A stretch of DNA of 64,000 bases from Sedimentisphaerales bacterium (GTDB taxonomy: Bacteria; Planctomycetota; Phycisphaerae; Sedimentisphaerales; SM23-30), in assembly GCA_028281535.1 (NCBI GenBank), contig JANQJS010000025.1, positions 124,001 through 188,000 on the forward strand. The letters run 5' to 3'. Within the stretch, counting starts at the first letter, position 1. Every line of letters starts with the position of its first letter. Position numbers and translations under genes: made by a program. Below the pieces are notes generated by a model. It saw nothing but the letters and a program-made list of their open reading frames with translations, did not search any database and was not told the origin of the DNA. This document shows, in pieces, positions 28,119 to 42,043 of the stretch.

Positions 28119-28934
28119 ATGCTGAAAGTTGAACCGTTAGAAAAATCATATGAAAATCTGGAATTCTTAAATAGCACCTCAGCACGGCCCATTAGAGTCT
28201 TGTGTGAATTTATTGAGCCAGAACATCGTTTTCGCGACCACAATGTAAAAAATACCATCGTCTTTTTTGGTTCCGCGCGAACCCTGGATGCTCAAACGGC
28301 ACAAGCAAACCTCGATGCCATAAAGCAAAAAGTGCAATCTGAAGGTGAATCTAAGTATCAGGCAGAGCTCAATAAAGCTCAAACCGATTTAGCGATGTCA
28401 CGGTATTATGAAGAATCTCGTCAGTTAGCTTTTAAACTTGCTGAGTGGTCGAAGGAATTTGAAAATCTCAAGCATCATTTTACCATTTGCTCAGGTGGGG
28501 GACCTGGAATTATGGAAGGCACCAATCGAGGCGCTAAAGAGGCAAACTGTAAATCGAGTGGTTTAAATATCAGCTTGCCATTCGAACAAGAGCCCAATCC
28601 TTATCAAGATAAAGACATTTCATTCGAATTTCATTACTTTTTCATTCGTAAGTTCTGGTTTGTCTATCTAGCGAAAGCCATGGTTGTATTTCCAGGTGGT
28701 TTTGGGACGTTGGATGAACTGTTTGAATTATTAACTTTGGTTCAAACCCAAAAAATTAAAAAGAAAATACCTATCGTTATTTATGGCGAAAAATTCTGGA
28801 AAGAAATTGTGAATTTTGATGCCTTGGTTAAGTGGGGCACGATTAGTGCTGACGATTTGAATCTATTCAAATTTGTAGATGATGTGGATACCGCATTTGA
28901 ATATTTAAAGCAAGAGCTAAGTAAATTGAAATAG
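28119..28934 (+). CDS. LOG-family (TIGR00730-type) Rossmann-fold protein
   Basis: 271-residue protein of the LONELY GUY / lysine-decarboxylase-like family, whose studied members cleave the N-glycosidic bond of nucleoside 5'-monophosphates, releasing the base. Family motifs are visible: SGGGPGIMEGTNRGA (about 127-141) and FPGGFGTLDELFE (about 190-202). The N-terminal ~45 residues and an inserted helical stretch (KVQSEGESKYQAELNKAQ) make it longer than plant-type LOG. A TATAAT at 28078-28083 and GAGAGGAA precede ATG 28119. It converges with the arsenosugar operon, two bases between stops. Confidence 0.9.
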   Translation: MLKVEPLEKSYENLEFLNSTSARPIRVLCEFIEPEHRFRDHNVKNTIVFFGSARTLDAQTAQANLDAIKQKVQSEGESKYQAELNKAQTDLAMSRYYEESRQLAFKLAEWSKEFENLKHHFTICSGGGPGIMEGTNRGAKEANCKSSGLNISLPFEQEPNPYQDKDISFEFHYFFIRKFWFVYLAKAMVVFPGGFGTLDELFELLTLVQTQKIKKKIPIVIYGEKFWKEIVNFDALVKWGTISADDLNLFKFVDDVDTAFEYLKQELSKLK

Positions 28935-28936
28935 AT

Positions 28937-30424
28937 TTATTTTGATTCTAGTAGTATAAATAGAACATTGTTCGTAAATACTGGGTTCATCGTAAGACCC
29001 AGATGGTCGTTGTTCAGAAATGTCGAATGAGTCCAGGGCACTGGGCTCTTAAGGTGAGGTTGAAATGCTTGGCCAAATCTGTCGTCTGCAACAGCACTGT
29101 AGCGAGGCACGGTGCCATCTCCAGGGTAATATAGTTGGTTTTGTTTAAAATCGAGATATGTTTTATCGTCATCAAGTCTGGCTTTTGTTAATGTGTTAAC
29201 GGCATCACCTGCAAAAAGATATATGCGACTAGGACATGGTTTGTCCGGATATCGATCCAGAGCTTGATGGAATGCTTTGGCTTTTGTTAGGGACCATTTA
29301 ACATATTCATAAGATTTTGTTGCAATGTCTTCATCAGAGACGTCTGGAAGATACATTTTAGTGAATGCCAGACTGTCAGGTGATAGCAATCCCCATTGAA
29401 GATTCTTCCAGTTATCTACATCATATAAGTCAAAATTATTATCAGCATTTTCGATGACCAAATGACGATTTCGCGGCATTAATTGGTAAATGGATGGCAT
29501 TGTTCCCAGAAGGGCTGGGTGATATCTTGGTAGGATTGGAGACATTTGGCTGCCATGCAATAATGTTTGTAATGATTCCATCGCGCCAAAATTTGGTGTG
29601 CCGACAATAATCAACCGGTCAACTTCTTTTGTTCCGGCCCAATTTAATTCAGGGTGAGTGCCATCATTGGGTAGTTGCTGATTACCATAACGTAAATAAT
29701 AACGACTTACCAAGCCTCCCATAGAATGAGCGACAATATCAAACTTAAAGCCTGTGTTAAGCCATTCTTCAAGTTCATCTGCTTTTTTATGTAATGCCAG
29801 ATTAGAACTTGCTCGTAGTTTACGTATTTTATTTTGTGCGGTTTTGTTTATATGCTTACGTGTAGATTTTATGAATTGATCCAGTTGAATGGCGTTGGCG
29901 ACATTGTCACGTCTCCAATCGTAAAAAAATGTAAAGCAGGTGAAATGATCTTCAGAATATTCAGGAGTTTCAGGGTCTAATACAACATTGTCTGTATAGC
30001 CTCCGACACCCAGTGAGGAGAGAATACTATTGTAGACATTTACAGCCAGGATGGGGAAAGAAAATCCAATTTGAAGTTTGTCCAATGGTCCTGATGCGAA
30101 GACATCTTCTGAGGCTGGGTTGTAACTGGTTGACTTAGGAATCGACAATGGCATTGCCATGGCGAGTGCGCCCTCTGGTGTATTCGGTGATATGGTATCC
30201 GATGTAAAAGCACCCCAGATGGTTTTTCCGGTGGATTTTTGAGTTAATTGTGCACCTAAAATTCCATGGATAACAATAACAGGATTTCGAGTTTCAATTT
30301 TTGCAGCATCTTTATAAATGCGTGCAACATTCGGGTTGAGAGTTTTTGATAAAGAGCAGCCATGGAGACATAAAGATAATCCCATGATAAGAAATACAAC
30401 CATTGTTTTTAACAGATGCCTCAT
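28937..30424 (-). CDS. LCAT-like alpha/beta-hydrolase lipoprotein, last gene of arsenosugar operon
   Basis: 495-residue predicted lipoprotein: signal sequence with lipobox LHGC (Cys23). The alpha/beta-hydrolase fold shows an oxyanion strand VIVIHGILGAQL (~49-60), an FFYDWRRDN segment (~166-174) and the nucleophile elbow AHSMGG (Ser234), the arrangement of the lecithin:cholesterol acyltransferase family (phospholipases and lipid acyltransferases). A later Asp/His (PGDGTVPRYSA, HSTFLNNDHLGL) would complete the triad. It is the promoter-distal gene of the minus-strand operon, 17 bases after the triple glycosyltransferase. Context suggests acting on membrane lipids, perhaps in arsenolipid formation; that part is inference. 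Confidence 0.82.
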   Translation of the reverse strand: MRHLLKTMVVFLIMGLSLCLHGCSLSKTLNPNVARIYKDAAKIETRNPVIVIHGILGAQLTQKSTGKTIWGAFTSDTISPNTPEGALAMAMPLSIPKSTSYNPASEDVFASGPLDKLQIGFSFPILAVNVYNSILSSLGVGGYTDNVVLDPETPEYSEDHFTCFTFFYDWRRDNVANAIQLDQFIKSTRKHINKTAQNKIRKLRASSNLALHKKADELEEWLNTGFKFDIVAHSMGGLVSRYYLRYGNQQLPNDGTHPELNWAGTKEVDRLIIVGTPNFGAMESLQTLLHGSQMSPILPRYHPALLGTMPSIYQLMPRNRHLVIENADNNFDLYDVDNWKNLQWGLLSPDSLAFTKMYLPDVSDEDIATKSYEYVKWSLTKAKAFHQALDRYPDKPCPSRIYLFAGDAVNTLTKARLDDDKTYLDFKQNQLYYPGDGTVPRYSAVADDRFGQAFQPHLKSPVPWTHSTFLNNDHLGLTMNPVFTNNVLFILLESK

Positions 30425-30441
30425 GATTCCGCCTTTGGTAT

Positions 30442-32442
30442 TTATGACTCGAATTGTTTGGTTAATTTGTAAAGAAATTTATTGCTGACGCCTAACTTGA
30501 ATCCAATTAAAGCGATAATATTGGATAGGGTCGTTTTTATCAAACCTTGATTTTCCCATTTTCGTGCTGAGGTAATTGCATTAATGGGCAGGTGGCATAG
30601 TTTTCCTTGTTCTTTGAGTTTTTGAATGAAATAATAATCTTCTCCCAAGTCGACTTCTGGGAACCCACCCATTGTTATAAACAGATCCTTTCGAACAAAT
30701 AGTGCCTGATCGCCATATGGAAGTTGAGATACTTTAGAACGAAATTTAACCGTCCATTCTAATAATTGCATTCCGATGGAATTCACTGTAGTTTTAAAGG
30801 AAAACGCACCGCCCACGATGTTAGGATTCGAAAACGTATCAAAAATATTTTCGAAATAGTTATCTGATTGGATGAGGGTGTCGGCATGTAGAAACAATAA
30901 TACATGTCCTTGTGCGATGGATGCTCCTGCATTCATTTGCATGGCTCGGTTTGCCATCGTTTTGATAACTTTTGCTCCTGAGCTGGCAGCAATTTCGACA
31001 GTTTTGTCTTGGCTATTGCCATCGACGACAATAATTTCTGTTCCAGGATGTCTTGCAGAATCAATAGCTCTTCTGATAAACCGTTCTTCGTTCAGCGTTG
31101 GAATGATAATGCTTAAATATATTTTATTCGTTTTTATATTCGGTGGAGTTTTTACCAAGTCTTCTGGTGTGTCTATGTCTGATAATTCTTCAAGTAAATC
31201 ATACTCAATTTTCTGTTGGTTTAATTGATTGATCGTGTCAGGAAATACACTATTCGTTCCCCATCTCATCTGCTTAAATAGATTTAAAGGGCGACGCATA
31301 CCTATGAGCCAATATCCACCATCATGACTCGGACCTATGACAACATCTTTCTGTTCAAGTGCATTGATTGCTTTTGTGATATGTATCGCATTTAGGTCTG
31401 TGCAATCGGTGCCAATGATTATAATGTTTTGATGGCCTTGTTCAAAGCTTTGCAGGAATGCTTGATGTAACTTATGGCCCAGATCACCGGGAGATTGCTG
31501 TTGATAGTCAATGTCAGCTCCCAGCCATTGTTGTAATTTTCTGTGATCACCGCCATGATATTGAACTTCGATATTGAGATCTTCAGAGTTCAATAAAGGT
31601 GAAATGCTATTAATGGTATATTCAGTTAGTTGACGTTGCAAATGTGCTGCTCCGGCATTTCCCAATTTTGGAATCATGCGAGTTTTCGCCTGGCCGGGCA
31701 AAGGATATCGACTGAAGATGATTAATTTATTCTTTTTAGAATGATAAAAACGAGTTGGATTGACTATTTGCTTAGCAATAGTCCAGAGAATAATGGTCCC
31801 GGCACTAAACATGCCTTTGAGTGTGCCAGATATTTTGGAGTACCCGATGCGTTGCCTGTACGAAACGGGGATTTCCATAACGCGTAGTTTAGCACGTAAT
31901 GCTTTAATTTGCATTTCAATGGTCCAGCCAAAATTACGATCTTCCATTTTGATTCTTTTTAATGAATGAAAGCGTATGGCACGAAAGGGGCCCAGATCTG
32001 TGAATTGACTTCGCCAAAAGCATTTCATTAAAAAGCAAGCCAAAGAATTTCCAAATCGCTGTGTCGTGGTTAATACTTTTGAAGAAGCATCATTGGCGAT
32101 GCGAGATCCGATCACCATATCAGTTTTATTGTCCGCAATTGGGGCAACGAGCAAGGGCATTTCTTCTGGAAAATCGCTATAGTCTGCATCCAGGAATACA
32201 ACAATATCACAATAATCCAAATGATCTATGCCCGTTAAGCAAGCTTGCCCATATCCACGGCGTGGTTCATGAACCACTAATGCTCCATGTTCGCTCGCAA
32301 CCTGCGCTGTTTGATCGGTGGAACCATTATCCACTAGGATGACTTGGTCAACCCAGTCTGGTATGTCTGTGAGAACTCTGCCCACAGAGTCTTCTTCATT
32401 GTAGGCTGGGATGATCACTTTTATGATGTGGTTTTTATACAT
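30442..32442 (-). CDS. Triple fusion: GT2 + TIGR04282-type + TIGR04283-type glycosyltransferases
   Basis: 666 residues with three glycosyltransferase-fold domains. Residues 1-235 are a GT2, dolichol-phosphate-mannose-synthase-like enzyme (VIIPAYNEEDSVG, VDNGSTDQT, FLDADYSDFPE). Residues ~237-430 are the DUF2064/TIGR04282 type (IIFSRYPLPGQAKTRM, GTDCTDLNA, GPSHDGGYWLIG, DIDTPEDL). Residues ~437-660 are the TIGR04283 type (SIIIPTLNEERFI, VVDGNSQDKT, FLHADT, GGFPEVDLGEDYYF). The last two families are usually separate adjacent genes and are annotated as arsenosugar biosynthesis glycosyltransferases. No transmembrane spans are obvious. It overlaps the upstream membrane GT gene by eight bases. Donor and acceptor substrates are unproven. 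Confidence 0.9.
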   Translation of the reverse strand: MYKNHIIKVIIPAYNEEDSVGRVLTDIPDWVDQVILVDNGSTDQTAQVASEHGALVVHEPRRGYGQACLTGIDHLDYCDIVVFLDADYSDFPEEMPLLVAPIADNKTDMVIGSRIANDASSKVLTTTQRFGNSLACFLMKCFWRSQFTDLGPFRAIRFHSLKRIKMEDRNFGWTIEMQIKALRAKLRVMEIPVSYRQRIGYSKISGTLKGMFSAGTIILWTIAKQIVNPTRFYHSKKNKLIIFSRYPLPGQAKTRMIPKLGNAGAAHLQRQLTEYTINSISPLLNSEDLNIEVQYHGGDHRKLQQWLGADIDYQQQSPGDLGHKLHQAFLQSFEQGHQNIIIIGTDCTDLNAIHITKAINALEQKDVVIGPSHDGGYWLIGMRRPLNLFKQMRWGTNSVFPDTINQLNQQKIEYDLLEELSDIDTPEDLVKTPPNIKTNKIYLSIIIPTLNEERFIRRAIDSARHPGTEIIVVDGNSQDKTVEIAASSGAKVIKTMANRAMQMNAGASIAQGHVLLFLHADTLIQSDNYFENIFDTFSNPNIVGGAFSFKTTVNSIGMQLLEWTVKFRSKVSQLPYGDQALFVRKDLFITMGGFPEVDLGEDYYFIQKLKEQGKLCHLPINAITSARKWENQGLIKTTLSNIIALIGFKLGVSNKFLYKLTKQFES

Positions 32443-33892
32443 TTGCAGACTCAGTGGGTTGTTGGAAATAATATTGTCTAATGGTCATAGTCCAGAATAT
32501 CCACACTGGTAAGTGAATGATTGCCATGACAATGATTTCCCATTGATCTGGTACGATCCACTTTAGATACGTTAATGGCAAAAGGCCAGTCCAGACTAAA
32601 CTTAGTTTTGATGGTAATAAAACGGCGCATGGAATCAGTGCAAGGTAATACCATGGATAGAGCGTCGGACTCATCAATAACATAAGAAGAATAATCGTTG
32701 TAAAGTAAACCAGGATGTTTTCAGGATGATATAGGATAAAACGAGCCAAAATAAAAGTACTTATAAGAAGCAGCAGTATGATGGTGCAACGAGCGATAAC
32801 TCGACCATCAATTTTTCCTTCTATCGACTTCGAAATTGCCCAGCCTGCTCCATGAAAAGGAAGATAAGCAAATTCATTTGCTTGCCATTCTTTAGAGTAT
32901 TTAACTGTACCACTGCTATTTGAGTGGTTCATCGAATTTGAATAGATCACTAAGATAGGTAATAAAGCTCCAGCACACAATAGGCAAGTTATGATTTTTG
33001 TTTTCAATGCTTGATGTTTGTTTAATAGAAGAATGGGCGACAACAGAATAGGCCATAATTTAAAACCAACTGCGAGTGTTAAACCTGTAATAATTAGCCA
33101 TCTTGATTGGTGTAGTAAGCCTAATAGGAAAATTAAAAGAAATGTCCCAACAATGAAATCAAAATGGCATTTGTAATAGGTCTCATAGATTAACAGTGGA
33201 TTCCAGATAAAAACACTTAGGTAGAGACTGTTGCGTTTAAAATACTTTAGTAAAATAAAAAGAATCAGGATGGTGATTATTTCCAAGAGGAAATAGCCTA
33301 TTCGAAGACCACTAAGGCTAAATGGCTTGATAAAATGGCAAAACGTAAAAAAGGCCTGCGTGACTGGAGGATAAATACTCCTTAGATGGGGATGGTTAAT
33401 CTTTTGTAATATATGTGATTGTTCATTAGTAAGTCGTAGTATTGTTTCGTCGCCTGTACCTTCCAGAATTTCTTTTGGGGCAAAGGCATAGGGATTTTCG
33501 CCGTGTGCAAGAACACCACCATCCCACAGGTAGCGATAAAAATCATCTTCGATGGGAGTGGTTGTAAAAGAGAGGAAACCTCTACATAAAATACCTATGA
33601 GCACTATCCATAGTAATATTATTTTATGAAATTTTCTGGGTGTTTTAGGTAGTAATAAAAAAATAAAATAATAGCTCATGCAAGCGATAAGCAGTAAGCC
33701 AATGACTTTAACTAGAAACCAACCTTCGGAGAGGCTTTCTTTTTCTATATTATCTGGAATGTACGGGATAGTGAGGAATATTCCGAAAAGTAGCAGGCCC
33801 AATAGAAGCCAGCCTGAAACAGGATGTTTCTTTAAGATGCTTAACGGAAACCCGCTTTGTGAAGCTGCTGAATTGTCTGGATCTTCTGTCAT
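32435..33892 (-). CDS. Multi-pass GT-C-like (GT87/mannosyltransferase type) glycosyltransferase
   Basis: 485-residue integral membrane protein with about ten to twelve hydrophobic segments. After the second, a loop has EDDFYRYLWDGGVLAHGENP, the acidic motif and W-D-G pattern of polyprenyl-phosphate-dependent GT-C enzymes (GT87/DUF2029 and related). IYPPVTQAFF and FKLWPILLSPI later are also typical. It would transfer a sugar from a lipid-phosphate donor on the outer face of the membrane. The first domain of the next gene could make that donor. It lies 52 bases after the DUF547 gene in the operon. Confidence 0.8.
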   Translation of the reverse strand: MTEDPDNSAASQSGFPLSILKKHPVSGWLLLGLLLFGIFLTIPYIPDNIEKESLSEGWFLVKVIGLLLIACMSYYFIFLLLPKTPRKFHKIILLWIVLIGILCRGFLSFTTTPIEDDFYRYLWDGGVLAHGENPYAFAPKEILEGTGDETILRLTNEQSHILQKINHPHLRSIYPPVTQAFFTFCHFIKPFSLSGLRIGYFLLEIITILILFILLKYFKRNSLYLSVFIWNPLLIYETYYKCHFDFIVGTFLLIFLLGLLHQSRWLIITGLTLAVGFKLWPILLSPILLLNKHQALKTKIITCLLCAGALLPILVIYSNSMNHSNSSGTVKYSKEWQANEFAYLPFHGAGWAISKSIEGKIDGRVIARCTIILLLLISTFILARFILYHPENILVYFTTIILLMLLMSPTLYPWYYLALIPCAVLLPSKLSLVWTGLLPLTYLKWIVPDQWEIIVMAIIHLPVWIFWTMTIRQYYFQQPTESANV

Positions 33893-33944
33893 AAATGTTG
33901 TGACCTGGAATTAAATGAATCGTTTATTTAGACCGAATCTATTA

Positions 33945-34823
33945 TCAATTTTGTTCATTTAATGTCCAGTCGTAATCCAGGAATTTTACTTTGTACTGGC
34001 CTATTTTGAGATAGGTTGCTTCTTTTGGGGGAAGATGCTGGCTAATATAATTCAAGCTGGAGCGGATTTTATCTTCATGGCCTTTAAATCCTGAGGCTGG
34101 CGTAAAGCCTTTATTGAAATCCTGGCCATACCATTCAAATATTTTGGAAAGGTAAACGATATTCTTTTTTTGATCAATTTTAAATTTTTTTGCATCATTA
34201 ACAAATAATAAGGTTTGGTCTTTAAATTGTTCAGTCAGTTTTTCTCCTTCGAATGGTTCATTTCGAAGAGTCGGGCAGCTCATTGCCGCACAGACTAATA
34301 CCATGTGGATTTCAGGTTGATAGAATTGTTGTCGAAGCACTTCATGCTCCATGGCATTCAATGTGTAATCTTGATGCATGATGGTAAATTTTAATTTGTC
34401 CCATACACCAGGGATATGCCTAATGCTATTTTTGGGAAACTTTAGTTGTTTAAGTTTGTTTGGTTTAATCGGATAGTGATCAAGTATCGCTAATAGAGTA
34501 TAAGCATTATAGGCGTTTGACCAAAACGCGATTTTATCTGGTTCGCTCCATGTTTTATAAACGGCTTCGTCCAGATTCGTAATCAGGGATAAATACTTGT
34601 GCAGAGATTCTGGATTCTTTTTTAATGCTTTGTAATTAACCATACCTTGATCATTGACATACTTAAGTACCTCTGTGTAGGCATGGTTGCTGAAAGTTGT
34701 GATTTTTTCTTGCTTAGCGATGACTGTTTTTTGAATGTCATTATTAGGAATTACAATGGATAGATAAATAATAATGACGATACTGGAGATGCTGGGGATT
34801 AATTTGAGTGTTTTATTTTTCAT
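33945..34823 (-). CDS. DUF547 protein with N-terminal membrane anchor
   Basis: 292 residues. One hydrophobic segment (LIPSISSIVIIIYLSIVI, ~8-25) serves as signal anchor; the rest is the DUF547 domain with its marks VNYKALKK, KIAFWSNAYNAYTLLAI, LNAMEHEVLRQQF, VCAAMSCPTLRNEPF and SKIFEWYGQDF. DUF547 members often accompany arsenosugar and other radical-SAM clusters; biochemical function is unknown. The conserved Cys pair region (CAAMSCP) suggests redox or metal binding. It is 15 bases downstream of arsS. Confidence 0.87.
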   Translation of the reverse strand: MKNKTLKLIPSISSIVIIIYLSIVIPNNDIQKTVIAKQEKITTFSNHAYTEVLKYVNDQGMVNYKALKKNPESLHKYLSLITNLDEAVYKTWSEPDKIAFWSNAYNAYTLLAILDHYPIKPNKLKQLKFPKNSIRHIPGVWDKLKFTIMHQDYTLNAMEHEVLRQQFYQPEIHMVLVCAAMSCPTLRNEPFEGEKLTEQFKDQTLLFVNDAKKFKIDQKKNIVYLSKIFEWYGQDFNKGFTPASGFKGHEDKIRSSLNYISQHLPPKEATYLKIGQYKVKFLDYDWTLNEQN

Positions 34824-34838
34824 GATATTACTAGAATA

Positions 34839-35807
34839 TTAATTAGATGTTTGTGTGAGTTCTCCACCGCAAGATGAGCCACTACCCGCCGTGCAACCAA
34901 AGCAGTGGTTTCCTGTCATAATCCTACGATTTAAAATGGTGGATAAATCCAAAGATTTAATATTATTAGATGCCCCATGATTCATGGGCATCTTCATGGC
35001 ATAATTGAAGTCGCAATCGTAGAGCGTGCCATCCCAGGAAACGTTAATCTGGTGGCGGCACATTAAGCCATCAACAGTCTCTGGGTTGTAAGCTTCACGT
35101 AGAAGTTGCAGGTAATCCTTGTCTTTACCTTGTCGAGCCAGATCTCGTTGGAATCGCCCGATTGGCATATTGGTAATGGTATAAAGTTGTGTAAAAGAAA
35201 TATTAAACAAACGTTTCAATTCACGTTGATAATCTGATTGTAAGTTTTGCTGGCTTGGCGGTAATGATGGCCCAATAGGATTATAGACAAGCGTGAGTGG
35301 TAGGTTCGGTTCTATGCCATATCCTAATTCATTTAATTTCTTGATGACGTCAATGCTTTTGTTGTAAACGCCTTTTCCACGTTGTTTGTCAACATTGGTT
35401 TCAAGATAACAGGGCAGGGATGCTACCAGCTCAACTTGGTGATTTTTCATGAATTCGGCATAATCCTTATAATCTTCTTCAAGTAGAATAGTCAAATTGG
35501 TTCTGACCATAACCTTGTGATCTTGCTTCCGGGCAGCTTTAATAAAAGATTTAAAATGAGGATTCATTTCAGGTGCACCGCCAGTAATATCGATCGTTTT
35601 GGCTTTTGTTTCTTTGGCTGTTTTTAGTACAGCCTCTAAGACTTCCCAGTCCATTGCTTCGGTTCGTTTGGGAGAAGATTCCACATGGCAATGTAGGCAG
35701 GCAAGGTTACATACCAATCCAATATTAATTTGAATCGTATCAATCGAATTTTCGGCATGAAGCCCTTCTGGGCTAGTCTCTGCTATGGCTTTGTCAAATT
35801 CATTCAT
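34839..35807 (-). CDS. arsS: Arsenosugar biosynthesis radical SAM protein ArsS
   Basis: 322-residue radical SAM enzyme. The iron-sulfur motif CxxxCxxC is Cys33-Cys37-Cys40 (VCNLACLHCH), followed by TGGAPEMNPHF. The C-terminus has the family's cysteine cluster Cys302, Cys305, Cys313 (CFGCTAGSGSSCGG), and GTLYDCDFNYAM provides further ligands. This is the TIGR04167 type, which is studied in cyanobacteria as ArsS: it adds the adenosyl group of SAM to dimethylarsenite to give dimethylarsinoyl-adenosine, the precursor of arsenosugars. It lies 26 bases downstream of the DUF3179 gene and one gene after arsM, as expected for the pathway. Confidence 0.93.
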   Translation of the reverse strand: MNEFDKAIAETSPEGLHAENSIDTIQINIGLVCNLACLHCHVESSPKRTEAMDWEVLEAVLKTAKETKAKTIDITGGAPEMNPHFKSFIKAARKQDHKVMVRTNLTILLEEDYKDYAEFMKNHQVELVASLPCYLETNVDKQRGKGVYNKSIDVIKKLNELGYGIEPNLPLTLVYNPIGPSLPPSQQNLQSDYQRELKRLFNISFTQLYTITNMPIGRFQRDLARQGKDKDYLQLLREAYNPETVDGLMCRHQINVSWDGTLYDCDFNYAMKMPMNHGASNNIKSLDLSTILNRRIMTGNHCFGCTAGSGSSCGGELTQTSN

Positions 35808-35833
35808 GAAGTAAATATTCCAAATAGGTAAAT

Positions 35834-36913
35834 TTATGAGTGGCCAGGAGGTGAATAAATTTCAACTTCTGGCAAAAGTGCGTTTAATGAAAACCAAAAC
35901 ATTGTTGCGACAGGAATTGGATGTTCTTTGTTATCCATCAACTGAAATGTAGTGAACTTACTAGCTCTATCGTAATTAATGCAAATCTCATTGTTGGCGA
36001 TGGTGTCTTTAACGTAATCGTTTTCATTTATCTGATTTTCAATATCTTTCAGTGCGTATGCCTTCATGATGTTATTGTATTGGATCAGCACCATGGGTTC
36101 TTTGTTTTTAAAGCGTTTAGGTTGGAGTCCATGTTGTGTTACAGGAAACATGAGTTGGTCTGTACTGAAATAACTCACGTAGGCTTTGCTTTTGTATCTG
36201 CGTTGAAATCCGGTATCTAAAGAGAGTACTTCTGTGTTGTGGTGCATCGTTTTCCATTTTTTCCAAGTGGTAACTTTGCTAGCCAGTAGTTCGAGTGAAT
36301 GATTTTTCTCTGCGGCAGGTCCAGTAACGGCTTTCATTTGAATTTGGCTCCAGAGGCTTTCCTGGTGCGGATCATTTTGCCGATCGTACATAAGGACGTT
36401 GGAATTCCAAAGCAGGCCGCTGACACCAAATTCTAAAGTCTTACCATCGACATGCCTGTCGAAGACCAGGGCCGATTTGCAAAGAGGGCAATACGTCACG
36501 ACAATGGGTTGGTCGTTAATATTGTCATTTACGATTTCATGCCAATCCAGAATCCGAAGGGGATAGGCTTTTGCTTTATTGCCAATTGTTACGCCAATGA
36601 TTTCATCGTCAGGGAGTAAATAATCTACATTGGCGACATTAATAAATTTTGGATTAGTTAGTGCTGGGATGCCATCTTTGGCTGGTCCACCAGATTTAAT
36701 TTCTTCGATATTTATATGTGAAAAATTTGTGTCAAAAGAGGGCGTGATATCTAATTGAGATGCGACCTGTGCGATTGAAACCGATTTGATATTTTTTTGG
36801 TATTCTGTTTTAAGATTTTGGTAACTGATTAATTTGTAAGTCGCGATGATCAAACAAATGCCAGCTAGTAGACCTTTGGAAAAATCTGAATATAGGATTT
36901 TTTTCATGGTCAA
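35834..36913 (-). CDS. DUF3179 membrane-anchored protein
   Basis: 359 residues. An N-terminal hydrophobic segment (LLAGICLIIATYKLISY, ~15-31) is a signal anchor. The DUF3179 domain shows GIPALTNPKF, GNKAKAYPLRILDWHEIVND, VVTYCPLCKSALVFDR (Cys142 and Cys145) and SGLLWNSNVLMYDR. In some species members carry selenocysteine in the CxxC-like motif; here both are cysteine codons. Function is unknown; the motif suggests redox or metalloid thiol chemistry on the periplasmic side. It lies between arsM and arsS, with short gaps, so it is very likely part of the arsenosugar pathway. Confidence 0.87.
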   Translation of the reverse strand: MTMKKILYSDFSKGLLAGICLIIATYKLISYQNLKTEYQKNIKSVSIAQVASQLDITPSFDTNFSHINIEEIKSGGPAKDGIPALTNPKFINVANVDYLLPDDEIIGVTIGNKAKAYPLRILDWHEIVNDNINDQPIVVTYCPLCKSALVFDRHVDGKTLEFGVSGLLWNSNVLMYDRQNDPHQESLWSQIQMKAVTGPAAEKNHSLELLASKVTTWKKWKTMHHNTEVLSLDTGFQRRYKSKAYVSYFSTDQLMFPVTQHGLQPKRFKNKEPMVLIQYNNIMKAYALKDIENQINENDYVKDTIANNEICINYDRASKFTTFQLMDNKEHPIPVATMFWFSLNALLPEVEIYSPPGHS

Positions 36914-36946
36914 TTACCTTAATCTCTTATTTGAATCGACATTCAT

Positions 36947-38158
36947 TTAACAACAATTCGGAGAACTGCAATCGTCGCCTTGGATGGTTTTTATCTGGTT
37001 AATTTTAGACTTTTTCATTTCCTTTGGATTGCGACTTTGGTTGGCTCGACAATTCATGGGTTCAGCATCGTCAAGCGAAATAATCTCAGCAGGTTCCAGG
37101 CCAATGATATCTTTGCTGTATGGGCCTGAAGGATCTGTCAGGATATTTAATGTTTTGTCGCAAACAGCCATGCGTTGTCCTCGGTAATAGGTGTGCCCAT
37201 CGTCATCTTTAACGCTTTTCCAGGGGCCTTTGTAGATCGCGGCTTGATGGCGTTCCAGGCAGGGGCCTTCCTTACCTTTGTAGGCTTGCACGGTAAGTGA
37301 GCGGAATTCGATGCCATCGATGGTTTGCCATGGCTCCGCTTGTCGCTCTAAAATTTGAATGCCATAGAATCCATTTTCAGCAAACATTTCCAGGAATTCA
37401 TCTTCACGGAATGCACCTGAAATGCAGCCGCTCCAAAGTTCAGGATCTTCTAATATTTTGTCGGTGGGAAATTCATCACAGACGATATCTGAAATGACAC
37501 AGCGGCCACCGCGTTTGAGGACGCGAAACATATCTTTAAATAATTCTTTTTTATCTTGAGGTTTGACCAGATTGAGAACGCAATTGGAAACAATTACATC
37601 AATACTGTTAGATTTTATGAGCGGATCTGTTTTGCGAATTTCATCGCAATAGGCTTCATATTTAGCAACATCTTCGACATTTTTGATTGGGTTTTTCTCC
37701 AGCCATTTTTGTGCCTGATCGAGTGACAGGGCAAGATCCTGGATCTTTCCTTTGTGAAATGAAACGTTGCTGTAGCCATATTTTTCGCTCATTTCATTTT
37801 GGTATTTGCGTGCTAAGCTGAGCATCGTGTCATTAAAGTCGACGCCAATGACGTTGCCTGTTTTTCCAACTTTTTGGGAGAGGATGTAGCAGATTTTACC
37901 GCCTCCGCTACCGAGATCGAGTGCTGTCTCTCCCTCATGGACATACTTGGATGGGTCGCCGCAGCCATAATCTTTTTCGATGATTTCCTGGGGCAAAAGC
38001 TTTAAGTCAATATCGTCATAATCTGTTGGACAGCATAGACTTGCTTGAGGCGCCTGGGCACCTGCGGCATAGCGATCGAGTACTTCACTTTCGATTTCGC
38101 TGCTGATATGCTTTTTTTGTATGTCGGTTGACGATGTGTTTGAATTGATACTGGTCAT
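36947..38158 (-). CDS. arsM: Arsenite S-adenosylmethionine methyltransferase ArsM
   Basis: 403-residue methyltransferase, first gene of the operon. The SAM site is ALDLGSGGGKICYILSQKVG (~79-98) with IGVDFNDTML (~104-113). Cysteines known to bind As(III) in ArsM enzymes are all present: Cys42/Cys43 (LCCPTD), Cys66 (YGCGDP), Cys193 (SNCVLNL) and Cys245 (WSGCISGAF). It sequentially methylates arsenite to mono- and dimethylarsenicals. The C-terminal ~110 residues include a second cysteine-rich stretch ending DDCSSPNCC. ATG 38158 has GAGGGA upstream. No arsR repressor gene is next to it. Confidence 0.94.
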   Translation of the reverse strand: MTSINSNTSSTDIQKKHISSEIESEVLDRYAAGAQAPQASLCCPTDYDDIDLKLLPQEIIEKDYGCGDPSKYVHEGETALDLGSGGGKICYILSQKVGKTGNVIGVDFNDTMLSLARKYQNEMSEKYGYSNVSFHKGKIQDLALSLDQAQKWLEKNPIKNVEDVAKYEAYCDEIRKTDPLIKSNSIDVIVSNCVLNLVKPQDKKELFKDMFRVLKRGGRCVISDIVCDEFPTDKILEDPELWSGCISGAFREDEFLEMFAENGFYGIQILERQAEPWQTIDGIEFRSLTVQAYKGKEGPCLERHQAAIYKGPWKSVKDDDGHTYYRGQRMAVCDKTLNILTDPSGPYSKDIIGLEPAEIISLDDAEPMNCRANQSRNPKEMKKSKINQIKTIQGDDCSSPNCC

Positions 38159-39146: not shown

Positions 39147-40301
39147 TTAAGTCTGGTTTGCCAAATAGACAATAATAGCACCGAGTGCGATGGCTGCTAC
39201 GGCTGCTAATGTGATCTTGATCCAGCTCCAAGGGCGTTCGCCTTGAACTTCTCCTGTGCGGCCGTTGATGAGAAAGCGATAGACGTTGCTGCCATATCTA
39301 TAAGCACTGATCCATGTGGGTAGTAAAATGTGTTTAAAGGTGACGTTGCTATGTTCTGTTTGCACTGACGTGATTCTTTGAGTGTCGCCACCGATATCTC
39401 GTTTTATTAATTTTCGAATGGTTTCATCCATGATTTCATTGGCGTATATGAATCCTTCATCAAGATCGATGTTATAACTTTCGGCGCTGAAGCCGCTCAG
39501 GTATTCATCTTTGTATGGGGTGAGTTCATGGAGATCCCACGGTTCCAATTTTTCGGTATAATTTCTGGGTAGTGATTTACTTGCTAGGACTAATACGTCA
39601 TCAAAAGAATTCCACACGGTGCCACTGGCAGGGTACCATCGAGTTTTTCTGACCCGGCGTGTGCGTCTGACAGATTTGCCATTGACCATGGTTGTATAGC
39701 TTTGGTTGACATAATAATAGACACCTCTCATGCCGCGATAAAAACTGGTTGTATCGCTATCGTATGTCCAATAGGGTACGTACATGCCGGTGAGTTTATC
39801 TTGTTGTCGAGCTTTGCGTTTTAAGTCATTGGGAGCAAACCAGAGTGTTTTGATCCAATCTTCAAAAGAGGCCCAGCCTTCTTTACGGGTTACTTTAAAG
39901 GGGAGTAACGATTTGGGTTTTATGTGTCGCTTTGAAGTTGCTGTTGTGACCATGGGCATGCCACAAAAACTGCATTCGGTGCTAACAATTTCTTCATTGA
40001 TAATGGTTTCGGCTGCACAGTATTCGCATTTAACTGTTTGGTGTTCTTCGAATTCGCTTTGGTCTGATAGATTTTTTAAATGAGTTTTAAAATCTAATTC
40101 ATGAATGTCATCTTCTGATTTTGGAATCAAAATTTCAGAATCACAATAGCCACAATATTGTGAGTCACTGCCAGGTTTGAATTCTAGCTTGGCACCACAT
40201 TTTTTGCATTTAAAGGTTTGTTGCAAAACACCGGTGACTGGCTCATCAATTATTTCATCATCATCGTCATCGATAATGACATCTTGATCATCTTCTTGCA
40301 T
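39147..40301 (-). CDS. Zinc-ribbon protein with C-terminal membrane segment, SPFH partner
   Basis: 384 residues. An acidic N-terminus (DDDDDE) precedes two zinc ribbons: CKKCGAKLEF..CGYCDSE (~32-54) and CEYCAAET..CSFCGMP (~92-115). The middle region (GMYVPYWTYDSDTTSFYRG, LPTWISAYRYG) is shared with TFIIB-type zinc-ribbon proteins often wrongly labelled PriA-related. One membrane span (ITLAAVAAIALGAIIVYLA) is at the end. It follows the SPFH gene by 30 bases; such pairs recur in bacteria and are thought to form a membrane-associated complex of unknown role. Confidence 0.8.
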   Translation of the reverse strand: MQEDDQDVIIDDDDDEIIDEPVTGVLQQTFKCKKCGAKLEFKPGSDSQYCGYCDSEILIPKSEDDIHELDFKTHLKNLSDQSEFEEHQTVKCEYCAAETIINEEIVSTECSFCGMPMVTTATSKRHIKPKSLLPFKVTRKEGWASFEDWIKTLWFAPNDLKRKARQQDKLTGMYVPYWTYDSDTTSFYRGMRGVYYYVNQSYTTMVNGKSVRRTRRVRKTRWYPASGTVWNSFDDVLVLASKSLPRNYTEKLEPWDLHELTPYKDEYLSGFSAESYNIDLDEGFIYANEIMDETIRKLIKRDIGGDTQRITSVQTEHSNVTFKHILLPTWISAYRYGSNVYRFLINGRTGEVQGERPWSWIKITLAAVAAIALGAIIVYLANQT

Positions 40302-40331
40302 AATTATTCCCCAGAATAATAATTTTATTGA

Positions 40332-41438
40332 TTATTGTGGAATGGGTGGCGGTGTAGAACCAAACAAGTTTTGTAATTCTGCCACTTGCTGAGCTTGTGT
40401 CCATGCTGCCATGCCATCACGCCAAACTAAAGACTCTTTTGTTAGTTGCCCGCTTTGGGCTTGTTGAGTTAAAGTGGCGATATCAAAGGGGCCGGTTTGT
40501 TGGCCATTAACCGCGACGTAAAACATCACGGTTTGCGGAATAGGGGGTGGTCCGCCTGGTGCGGGTTGCGTTTGTCCTTGTCCTGGTGTCATGGCTTGTC
40601 CCATTTGGTTGGCCATGGCAAATCCCATACCCATGCCCATGCCTCCGGCAGCCATACCGCCAGGATTCTTCGCGGCATCTTCCATTGCGTTGGCCGTTTT
40701 GAATTGGGTATATTGATTCAGGTTACCAATAACGCCCATGCTTGTGCGTGTGTCCAGAGCTTTCTCGACTTCAGGTGGAAGTGAAATATTCTCAACCAAC
40801 ATTTTAGTCACTTCAATACCATAGTTGTTAAAATCATCGTGGATGTTTTTTGAAACAAAATCGCCCAGCTCATCATAGTTTGCTGCTAGGTCTAATACTG
40901 GAATTTTGCTTTCACCAATAATATCAGTAAATCTTGATATGATCAGATTGCGCAACTGATCAGTAATTTCGTCAGTAGTAAAATGCCCATCGGTTCCTAC
41001 GATTTCTTTGATGAAGGTTGTTGGGTCTTTTACGCGTATGGCATAGGTTCCAAAGGCACGCAAGCGAACGGGGCCAAATTCAGCATCTCGCAGGGTAATT
41101 GGATGTTTGGTTCCCCATTTCAGGTCGGTAAAACGACGCATACTAACAAAGTAGACTTCCGCTTTAAATGGGCTACTGAACCCATGTTTCCAACCTTGAA
41201 GAGTGGATAAAATCGGCAGGTTGCTTGTTTCAAGTGTGTACATGCCGGGTTCAAAGATGTCGGCGATTTGACCTTGATTGATAAAAATCGCCATTTGGGA
41301 TTCTCGAACGGTTAGCTTGGCGCCCATTTTAATTTCATTGTCATAGCGTTCAAATCGATAGACGAGTGTATCGTTGGTGGGATCTGTCCACTCGATGATA
41401 TCGATAAACTCGCCGCGTATTTTGTCAAAAAGCCCCAT
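40332..41438 (-). CDS. SPFH-domain protein with C-terminal GYF_2-type domain
   Basis: 368 residues. Residues ~1-240 form a stomatin/prohibitin-like SPFH domain of the YdjI/virion-core type (GLFDKIRGEFIDIIEWTD at the N-terminus, LPPEVEKALDTRTSMGVIG at its end). A glycine/methionine-rich linker (GGMAAGGMGMGMGF) leads to a GYF_2 module (FYVAVNGQQTGPFDIATL, LVWRDGMAAWTQAQQV) and a PPPIPQ tail. I start at ATG 41438 because AAAGGAG lies eight bases before it; the open frame to 41459 contains that ribosome site. Together with the zinc-ribbon protein it likely forms a membrane scaffold. Confidence 0.87.
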   Translation of the reverse strand: MGLFDKIRGEFIDIIEWTDPTNDTLVYRFERYDNEIKMGAKLTVRESQMAIFINQGQIADIFEPGMYTLETSNLPILSTLQGWKHGFSSPFKAEVYFVSMRRFTDLKWGTKHPITLRDAEFGPVRLRAFGTYAIRVKDPTTFIKEIVGTDGHFTTDEITDQLRNLIISRFTDIIGESKIPVLDLAANYDELGDFVSKNIHDDFNNYGIEVTKMLVENISLPPEVEKALDTRTSMGVIGNLNQYTQFKTANAMEDAAKNPGGMAAGGMGMGMGFAMANQMGQAMTPGQGQTQPAPGGPPPIPQTVMFYVAVNGQQTGPFDIATLTQQAQSGQLTKESLVWRDGMAAWTQAQQVAELQNLFGSTPPPIPQ

Positions 41439-42043
41439 ACCTTGGTCTCCTTTATGCAAATGATATATCGCTTAATGGCACTTAGAAAGATATTGTAAGT
41501 GCATTTATAAACATTGTAAGGGAACATTTTGAGATGATAAACATAAAATTTTACAATAATTTATGGCTGTTTAAGGTCATCAAAAATGGTATAGAGAGTC
41601 GTTGTTTTAAAACATCAGGATAAACCTCTTGTTTACCCCGATGTTAGTAGGGGAAGTGGAGTATTCCCTGTATGGTGGTTCGCTGAATTTGGGGTAGCCA
41701 TCTCGGTGCGCAGCGACCCATCTCGAGCTGAGTATCAATGAAATTCGTTTCCTTTCCAATTTTGACTGTTTAATTGTATGCTTCTGGACAATTAAAAGTC
41801 AACCAATAAGCGGAAATTAAGCAATTTACTAGAGGAGATGCGTGAATTTCTGAAAAAAAACTATAGAGTGGGCTGGCCAGTTTTGTCATTTTTTATTGAT
41901 TACCTGCCGAGCAAGGGGCTAAGCGTCCTACGATGTTATATAGCAGTTCACTATGAAGTTGTCTTGACGGTAATTTTAAGTGTAGGATAGCCTTAGGTTT
42001 AGTTTTAATCTTTTTTTCGAGATAACTGTGAAGGGATATTTTC
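41439..42043. other. Intergenic region without gene
   Basis: About 600 bases between the SPFH gene and the lipoprotein. Left part is AT-rich, middle (41,630-41,740) is more GC-rich with short runs such as TACCCCGATG and GTGCGCAGCGACCC. I see no tRNA, terminator stem or reading frame of note. Confidence 0.5.

Follow-up and report, generated by a model that had tools for sequence, protein, structure and literature searches.

Association of a predicted polyprenyl-type glycosylation module with ArsM and ArsS in a planctomycete arsenosugar operon

In the cyanobacterial arsenosugar pathway, as described for Synechocystis, ArsM first converts arsenite to dimethylarsenite by methylation, after which ArsS adds the 5'-deoxyadenosyl group of SAM, reactions established for the two families (Xue 2019 and Cheng 2021, cited in PMC8552651 and PMC12159101). 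The arsinothricin operon arsQML likewise pairs ArsM with a radical SAM enzyme (PMC8552651). For the steps past arsenic insertion the enzymes given in a review of microalgal arsenoribosides, a nucleosidase and a transferase, are both proposals (PMC10456119), and according to a 2024 study several arsenic pathways in algae are still unknown (PMC11009773). A third arrangement that bears on the locus described here is the polyprenyl-phosphate glycosylation of ArnC/ArnT and of DPM synthase/PIG-M, in which a polyprenyl-phosphate GT2 enzyme goes together with a GT-C membrane transferase.

The locus lies in the window, a stretch of 64,000 nucleotides from a Sedimentisphaerales bacterium (Planctomycetota; assembly GCA_028281535.1, contig JANQJS010000025.1) with a genome of 4.44 Mb. 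It shares with the cyanobacterial pathway the order ArsM, then ArsS, whereas its TIGR04282 and TIGR04283 domains form one protein with a DPM1-like domain, and GT-C, DUF547 and DUF3179 proteins are added. Unlike arsQML it encodes ArsS (TIGR04167) and not ArsL as the radical SAM enzyme, and ArsQ is absent. As in the ArnC/ArnT and DPM synthase/PIG-M systems a polyprenyl-phosphate GT2 adjoins a GT-C membrane transferase, a resemblance known from sequence profiles, but in the window the GT2 part is fused to two domains named for arsenosugar synthesis. The association of this polyprenyl-type glycosylation module with the operon, as an extension of it, is well supported, while its chemistry is predicted.

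The operon and its ArsM and ArsS

The original prediction had read the locus as a seven-gene operon on one strand with short gaps or an overlap. An ORF check within the window found the seven ORFs where they had been placed, on the minus strand between 28937 and 38158, and in transcription order they are separated by 33, 26, 15, 52, -8 (an overlap) and 17 bases. The features are as follows, in transcription order.

36947..38158, minus strand: arsM, As(III) S-adenosylmethionine methyltransferase, 403 aa, first gene of the operon
35834..36913, minus strand: membrane-anchored DUF3179 protein (PF11376), CPLC motif at 142-145
34839..35807, minus strand: arsS, radical SAM arsenosugar enzyme, 322 aa
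33945..34823, minus strand: DUF547 protein (PF04784) with an N-terminal membrane segment or signal
32435..33892, minus strand: GT-C-type multi-pass membrane glycosyltransferase, 485 aa, EDDFYRYLWDG loop
31735..32442, minus strand: fused glycosyltransferase, domain 1, DPM1/ArnC/AglJ-like polyprenyl-phosphate GT2, DADYSDFPEE
31156..31725, minus strand: fused glycosyltransferase, domain 2, TIGR04282/DUF2064, CofC-like nucleotidyltransferase fold
30442..31116, minus strand: fused glycosyltransferase, domain 3, TIGR04283 GT2
28937..30424, minus strand: LCAT/lipase-like lipoprotein (PF02450), lipobox LHGC, AHSMGG nucleophile elbow

Pfam and NCBIfam searches agreed with the family labels given earlier to the ArsM-type methyltransferase, DUF3179, ArsS, DUF547 and LCAT proteins, and the cysteine motifs claimed for ArsM and ArsS were both found. 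ArsM carries the general features of its family, with Cys 42/43, 66, 193 and 245, which we take to correspond to the cysteines of known ArsM, and a SAM-methyltransferase fold (Methyltransf_31, 99 bits). Its best-matching NCBIfam model is NF040538 (332 bits, under the cut-off of 500), followed by NF008823 (183 bits); in a further difference from the cyanobacterial pathway it misses the cut-off of the arsenosugar-type model NF038099, with 130.4 of 400 bits. ArsS scores 442.5 bits against TIGR04167 (cut-off 300), is the sole copy above that cut-off in the genome and has the radical SAM motif C33-x3-C37-x2-C40 at 33-40. Only one of 14 control genomes passed the ArsS cut-off, that of Synechococcus elongatus, which belongs to a group known as arsenosugar makers. 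From its family the window ArsS is predicted to adenosylate dimethylarsenite, and the arsenosugar assignment of the operon is sound.

Upstream of arsM, beyond an ORF of 148 aa, lies a pair of genes at 39147-41459 (minus strand) encoding a zinc-ribbon-like Cys-rich protein, for which Pfam gave no match, and an SPFH/Band 7 protein with GYF_2.

Fused glycosyltransferase, GT-C protein and exported accessory proteins

The gene following that of the GT-C protein had been described as a triple glycosyltransferase. It is indeed a fusion of three domains, two of them GT2, although the middle domain has a CofC-like nucleotidyltransferase fold and need not be a glycosyltransferase. The PDB matches of domain 1 are ArnC and dolichol-P-mannose synthase, and it falls below the AglJ model TIGR04182 (168.4 bits, cut-off 325). 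Domain 2 scores 209.6 bits against TIGR04282 (cut-off 134), occurs once in the genome and matches PDB 3cgx, labelled a putative nucleotide-diphospho-sugar transferase, with an E-value of 1e-27. This label and the CofC-like family suggest that the domain may activate a sugar and not transfer one; that it may be a nucleotidyltransferase is drawn from the CofC-like family match. Domain 3 scores 269.7 bits against TIGR04283 (cut-off 182) and is the sole copy above cut-off in the genome. Each of these two cut-offs was passed by a single control genome among the 14. In NCBIfam the two families TIGR04282 and TIGR04283 both bear the name "arsenosugar biosynthesis glycosyltransferase", so that two of the candidate glycosyltransferase domains were already recorded as associated families.

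The GT-C protein matched no Pfam or NCBIfam model. A profile built from seven relatives matched, modestly (E about 1e-7), PDB entries for GPI mannosyltransferase 1 (PIG-M, E 1e-7) and the bacterial mannosyltransferase 9dm5 (E 9e-7). The earlier description of a GT-C-like membrane glycosyltransferase thus agrees with a profile match to polyprenyl/dolichyl-P-mannose-dependent mannosyltransferases of solved structure and with about 11 predicted hydrophobic segments. By profile and multi-pass topology the protein is of the polyprenyl-P-sugar-dependent type, its use of such a donor being a prediction. Adjoining a GT-C gene, the fusion of domain 1 with TIGR04282 and TIGR04283 also occurs in loci L016 (HR10), L132, L133, L136, L206, L209, L214 and L217, nine loci with the window counted, and in L130 the GT-C protein is itself fused to domains 1-2. 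This recurrence in eight other loci connects the arsenosugar domains with the pair of polyprenyl-phosphate type. When 47 GT-C proteins were placed on a tree, the window copy fell into a clade of 11 rows with support of 100, eight of which are linked to ArsS; two of the remaining three (genomes G106 and G296) are on short contigs. At least seven changes in ArsS linkage are needed on the tree, indicating that the partnership of GT-C and ArsS was gained or lost repeatedly.

The DUF547 protein (72.5 bits against PF04784, gathering score 27) has as invariant residues N103-x-Y-N, E159, H173, C178 and C183 (alignment A2). A Foldseek comparison of its predicted model (m9dfc18406bab, pLDDT 88.5) with the PDB returned nothing at E <= 0.001, the highest VIA Z being 4.8; a new fold does not follow from this. 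Searching the literature for DUF547 in connection with arsenic gave no relevant match. The DUF3179 protein scores 254.5 bits against PF11376 (gathering score 27), and a PDB search with its model (pLDDT 88.4) likewise gave no structural match, again not proof of a new fold. DUF3179 has been described as a predicted selenoprotein family with a UxxC/T motif, and the available parts of the two reviews do not mention a link to ArsS (PMC13188914, PMC9312934). The window copy is of the same family, with CxxC at the Sec site, but it uses Cys and sits in an arsenosugar operon. The invariant residues and membrane segment of DUF547, together with the CPLC motif of DUF3179 and the presence of Sec in a relative at locus L147, make a redox role outside the cytoplasm likely. 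In that relative (L147:6846-7880, minus strand), which lies beside ArsS, the first Cys of CPLC is replaced by a TGA (Sec) codon, giving UPLC. Many planctomycete DUF3179 genes have a single in-frame TGA.

Neighbourhoods of ArsS in other genomes

The original prediction had proposed a search for conserved co-occurrence of the seven families. We read the ArsS neighbourhoods of 80 loci from many phyla and of about 70 further planctomycete loci, and as a less biased set used 392 Planctomycetota genomes, 131 of them with ArsS, counting a gene as near when within 15 kb. DUF547 was near ArsS in at least 26 of the 131 ArsS genomes (the window's own copy included), GT-C in 14 genomes and DUF3179 in 6 of the 76 searched, with about 0.3-0.7 expected by chance for each. 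With the window left out, Poisson P values were about 1e-13 to 1e-15 for GT-C, 1e-29 or lower for DUF547 and 1e-4 to 1e-5 for DUF3179, values that overstate the case because the genomes are related to one another. The GT-C alignment (A1) included L132, L133, L136 and the window, which are themselves ArsS-linked; without these four, 10 of the 14 genomes are independent of it. Co-occurrence is therefore clear for the triple glycosyltransferase, GT-C and DUF547, weak but significant for DUF3179, and not significant for LCAT.

On the same strand as ArsS in 134 loci, a set enriched for loci chosen for holding GT-C or DUF547, we counted ArsM (55), TIGR04282 (53), TIGR04283-like (44), MerA-like oxidoreductase (36), VTT (31), DUF547 (27), GT-C (11) and DUF3179 (4). 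Near copies of the locus are found at L132, L133, L136, L147 (where GT-C lies past the end of the stretch read) and L214, which run ArsM, (PiT), ArsS, (DUF3179), (VTT-)DUF547, MerA-like, GT-C, triple glycosyltransferase. The order ArsM-ArsS-[VTT-]DUF547-MerA-GT-C-triple glycosyltransferase is repeated in other Phycisphaerae and planctomycetes. Many ArsS loci have TIGR04282 and TIGR04283 alone, with neither GT-C nor DUF547, so that the latter two mark a variant and not the core of the pathway.

Two further gene types recur at these loci. A PiT-type phosphate permease lies inside the arsM-arsS operon at 10 loci, often between the two genes (among them L013:8762-9913, L132:10019-11350, L147:11573-12691, L208, L209, L214, L218 and L219), and is possibly a supply route for arsenate. 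A membrane domain of the VTT (TVP38-like) type, which in many cases forms a fusion with DUF547 and is followed by a MerA-like FAD oxidoreductase (PRK06370 type), is repeated at L136:8925-12252, L132, L133, L147, L149, L204, L206, L208, L214 and L218; the same pair stands beside DUF547-GT-C in G377, a genome in which ArsS was not found.

A proposed route and the alternatives to it

We consider it somewhat better than even (a probability of about 0.55) that the fused glycosyltransferase, the GT-C protein and DUF547 act on the product of ArsM and ArsS. For the steps beyond ArsS, every one of which we infer, the following route may be proposed. ArsM and ArsS would yield dimethylarsinoyl-deoxyadenosine. 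MTA phosphorylases act on 5'-substituted deoxyadenosines, and one encoded elsewhere in the genome (TIGR01694, 301 bits, cut-off 275) could take off the adenine to leave 5-deoxy-5-dimethylarsinoyl-ribose-1-phosphate. The operon has no obvious nucleosidase or other adenine-removing enzyme, and no dedicated nucleoside phosphorylase was seen among the annotated neighbour clusters of ArsS loci; adenine is probably removed by this housekeeping enzyme. The ribose-1-phosphate that it leaves would be a natural substrate for the nucleotidyltransferase-like TIGR04282 domain, which would convert it to a nucleotide sugar. The arsenoribose might then be passed by TIGR04283 to a small acceptor and/or by the DPM1/ArnC-like domain to polyprenyl phosphate, and on the outer side of the membrane GT-C could spend the polyprenyl-linked donor, giving a glycosylated lipid or glyceride. 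DUF547 and DUF3179, with its redox CPLC motif and Sec in relatives, are predicted to be exported accessory proteins, and LCAT has no required role.

Passage of arsenoribose through polyprenyl phosphate to an outer-face acceptor is the parsimonious arrangement, since domain 1 is similar to both ArnC and dolichol-P-mannose synthase and GT-C proteins use lipid-linked donors; ArnC and ArnT carry out a comparable polyprenyl-linked transfer for aminoarabinose. We nevertheless regard the polyprenyl-phosphate route itself as less likely than not, and the fuller proposal that bacteria make a polyprenyl-phosphoryl arsenoribose donor from which GT-C puts dimethylarsinoyl-ribose on envelope lipids as rather doubtful. 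If true, it would make arsenic a deliberate constituent of the cell surface. A membrane arsenolipid product is compatible with the gene anatomy, and algae contain isoprenoid-linked arsenoribosides, which makes such chemistry possible but is not proof for the window (PMC10456119). With the recurrent DPM1/ArnC-like-TIGR04282-TIGR04283 fusion, the dedicated GT-C clade and DUF547, there is a fixed series of named enzymes, each open to separate deletion or expression. The last stages in the making of arsenic-sugars and arsenic-lipids thereby become testable, through a fused three-part sugar-transferase and a membrane transferase that repeatedly accompany ArsM and ArsS in other bacteria.

The DPM1-like/GT-C pair and DUF547 could instead use a normal hexose to make an ordinary glycolipid or a glycan of the envelope, their linkage to ArsM/ArsS reflecting metal(loid)-stress co-regulation, or could add a second ordinary sugar to the arsenosugar, the arsenoribose itself not being transferred. 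The module may indeed handle an ordinary sugar, because DUF547-GT-C pairs exist without nearby ArsS in 15 genomes, nine with ArsS elsewhere and six in which none was found (G347, G423, G447, G098, G377 and G153); the relatives of GT-C are mannosyltransferases and MerA-like and VTT neighbours are frequent. Against this, the DPM1-like domain is covalently fused to both arsenosugar-named domains at all nine fusion loci, the window's GT-C clade is almost wholly ArsS-linked, and one of the six genomes scored as lacking ArsS (G098) holds an ArsS fragment with ArsM and TIGR04282. We hold this alternative to be possible, at odds of roughly one in three or slightly less.

It is quite unlikely that all seven genes form one pathway in which the LCAT lipoprotein is an acyltransferase giving an acylated membrane arsenolipid. 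The gene (38.6 bits against PF02450, gathering score 21) starts 17 bases downstream of the triple glycosyltransferase, its lipobox and nucleophile elbow would suit such a role, and in G390 the ArsM-PiT-ArsS locus also contains an LCAT, 42% identical to that of the window. Yet among the 30 of 392 Planctomycetota genomes with homologues, G390 and the window were the sole cases near ArsS, a linkage that is not significant (Poisson P about 0.06-0.08), at least five genomes (G079, G111, G154, G231 and G293) have a strong LCAT and no ArsS match, and elsewhere LCAT is mostly a stand-alone gene. We therefore rejected LCAT as a pathway gene; it is probably a co-transcribed neighbour and should be left out of the operon claim. 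The original prediction that five accessory genes complete the pathway holds in that the triple glycosyltransferase, GT-C, DUF547 and DUF3179 are linked to ArsS, but is too strong as it stood, given the DUF547-GT-C pairs without ArsS, the mostly stand-alone LCAT and the lack of an adenine-removing enzyme in the operon. With LCAT probably out and adenine removal probably assigned to the MTA phosphorylase, the list of candidates is narrowed.

That ArsM and ArsS act alone beside unrelated genes, as variable synteny and the absence of ArsS from all 12 other genomes of the window's own family might suggest, is very unlikely: the proximity of GT-C and DUF547 to ArsS has a Poisson P of about 1e-13 or lower, and both the fusion and the order of the genes are repeated in Planctomycetota, HR10, Latescibacterota and Akkermansiaceae.

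Some other genes were observed around the operon and its relatives. A LOG/lysine-decarboxylase-family gene (28119-28934, plus strand) is convergent with LCAT at a distance of 2 bases; as an adenine-releasing enzyme it was chemically attractive, but it is near ArsS in the window alone and was dropped. At 14 loci, mostly of methane-oxidising gammaproteobacteria (including L052, L054, L057, L059, L060, L066, L070, L073, L077, L078 and L081), the gene immediately upstream of arsS encodes a DUF3047 protein, and a fatty acid hydroxylase-superfamily membrane protein adjoins arsS at about 9-12 loci (L036, L038, L046, L062, L065, L132).
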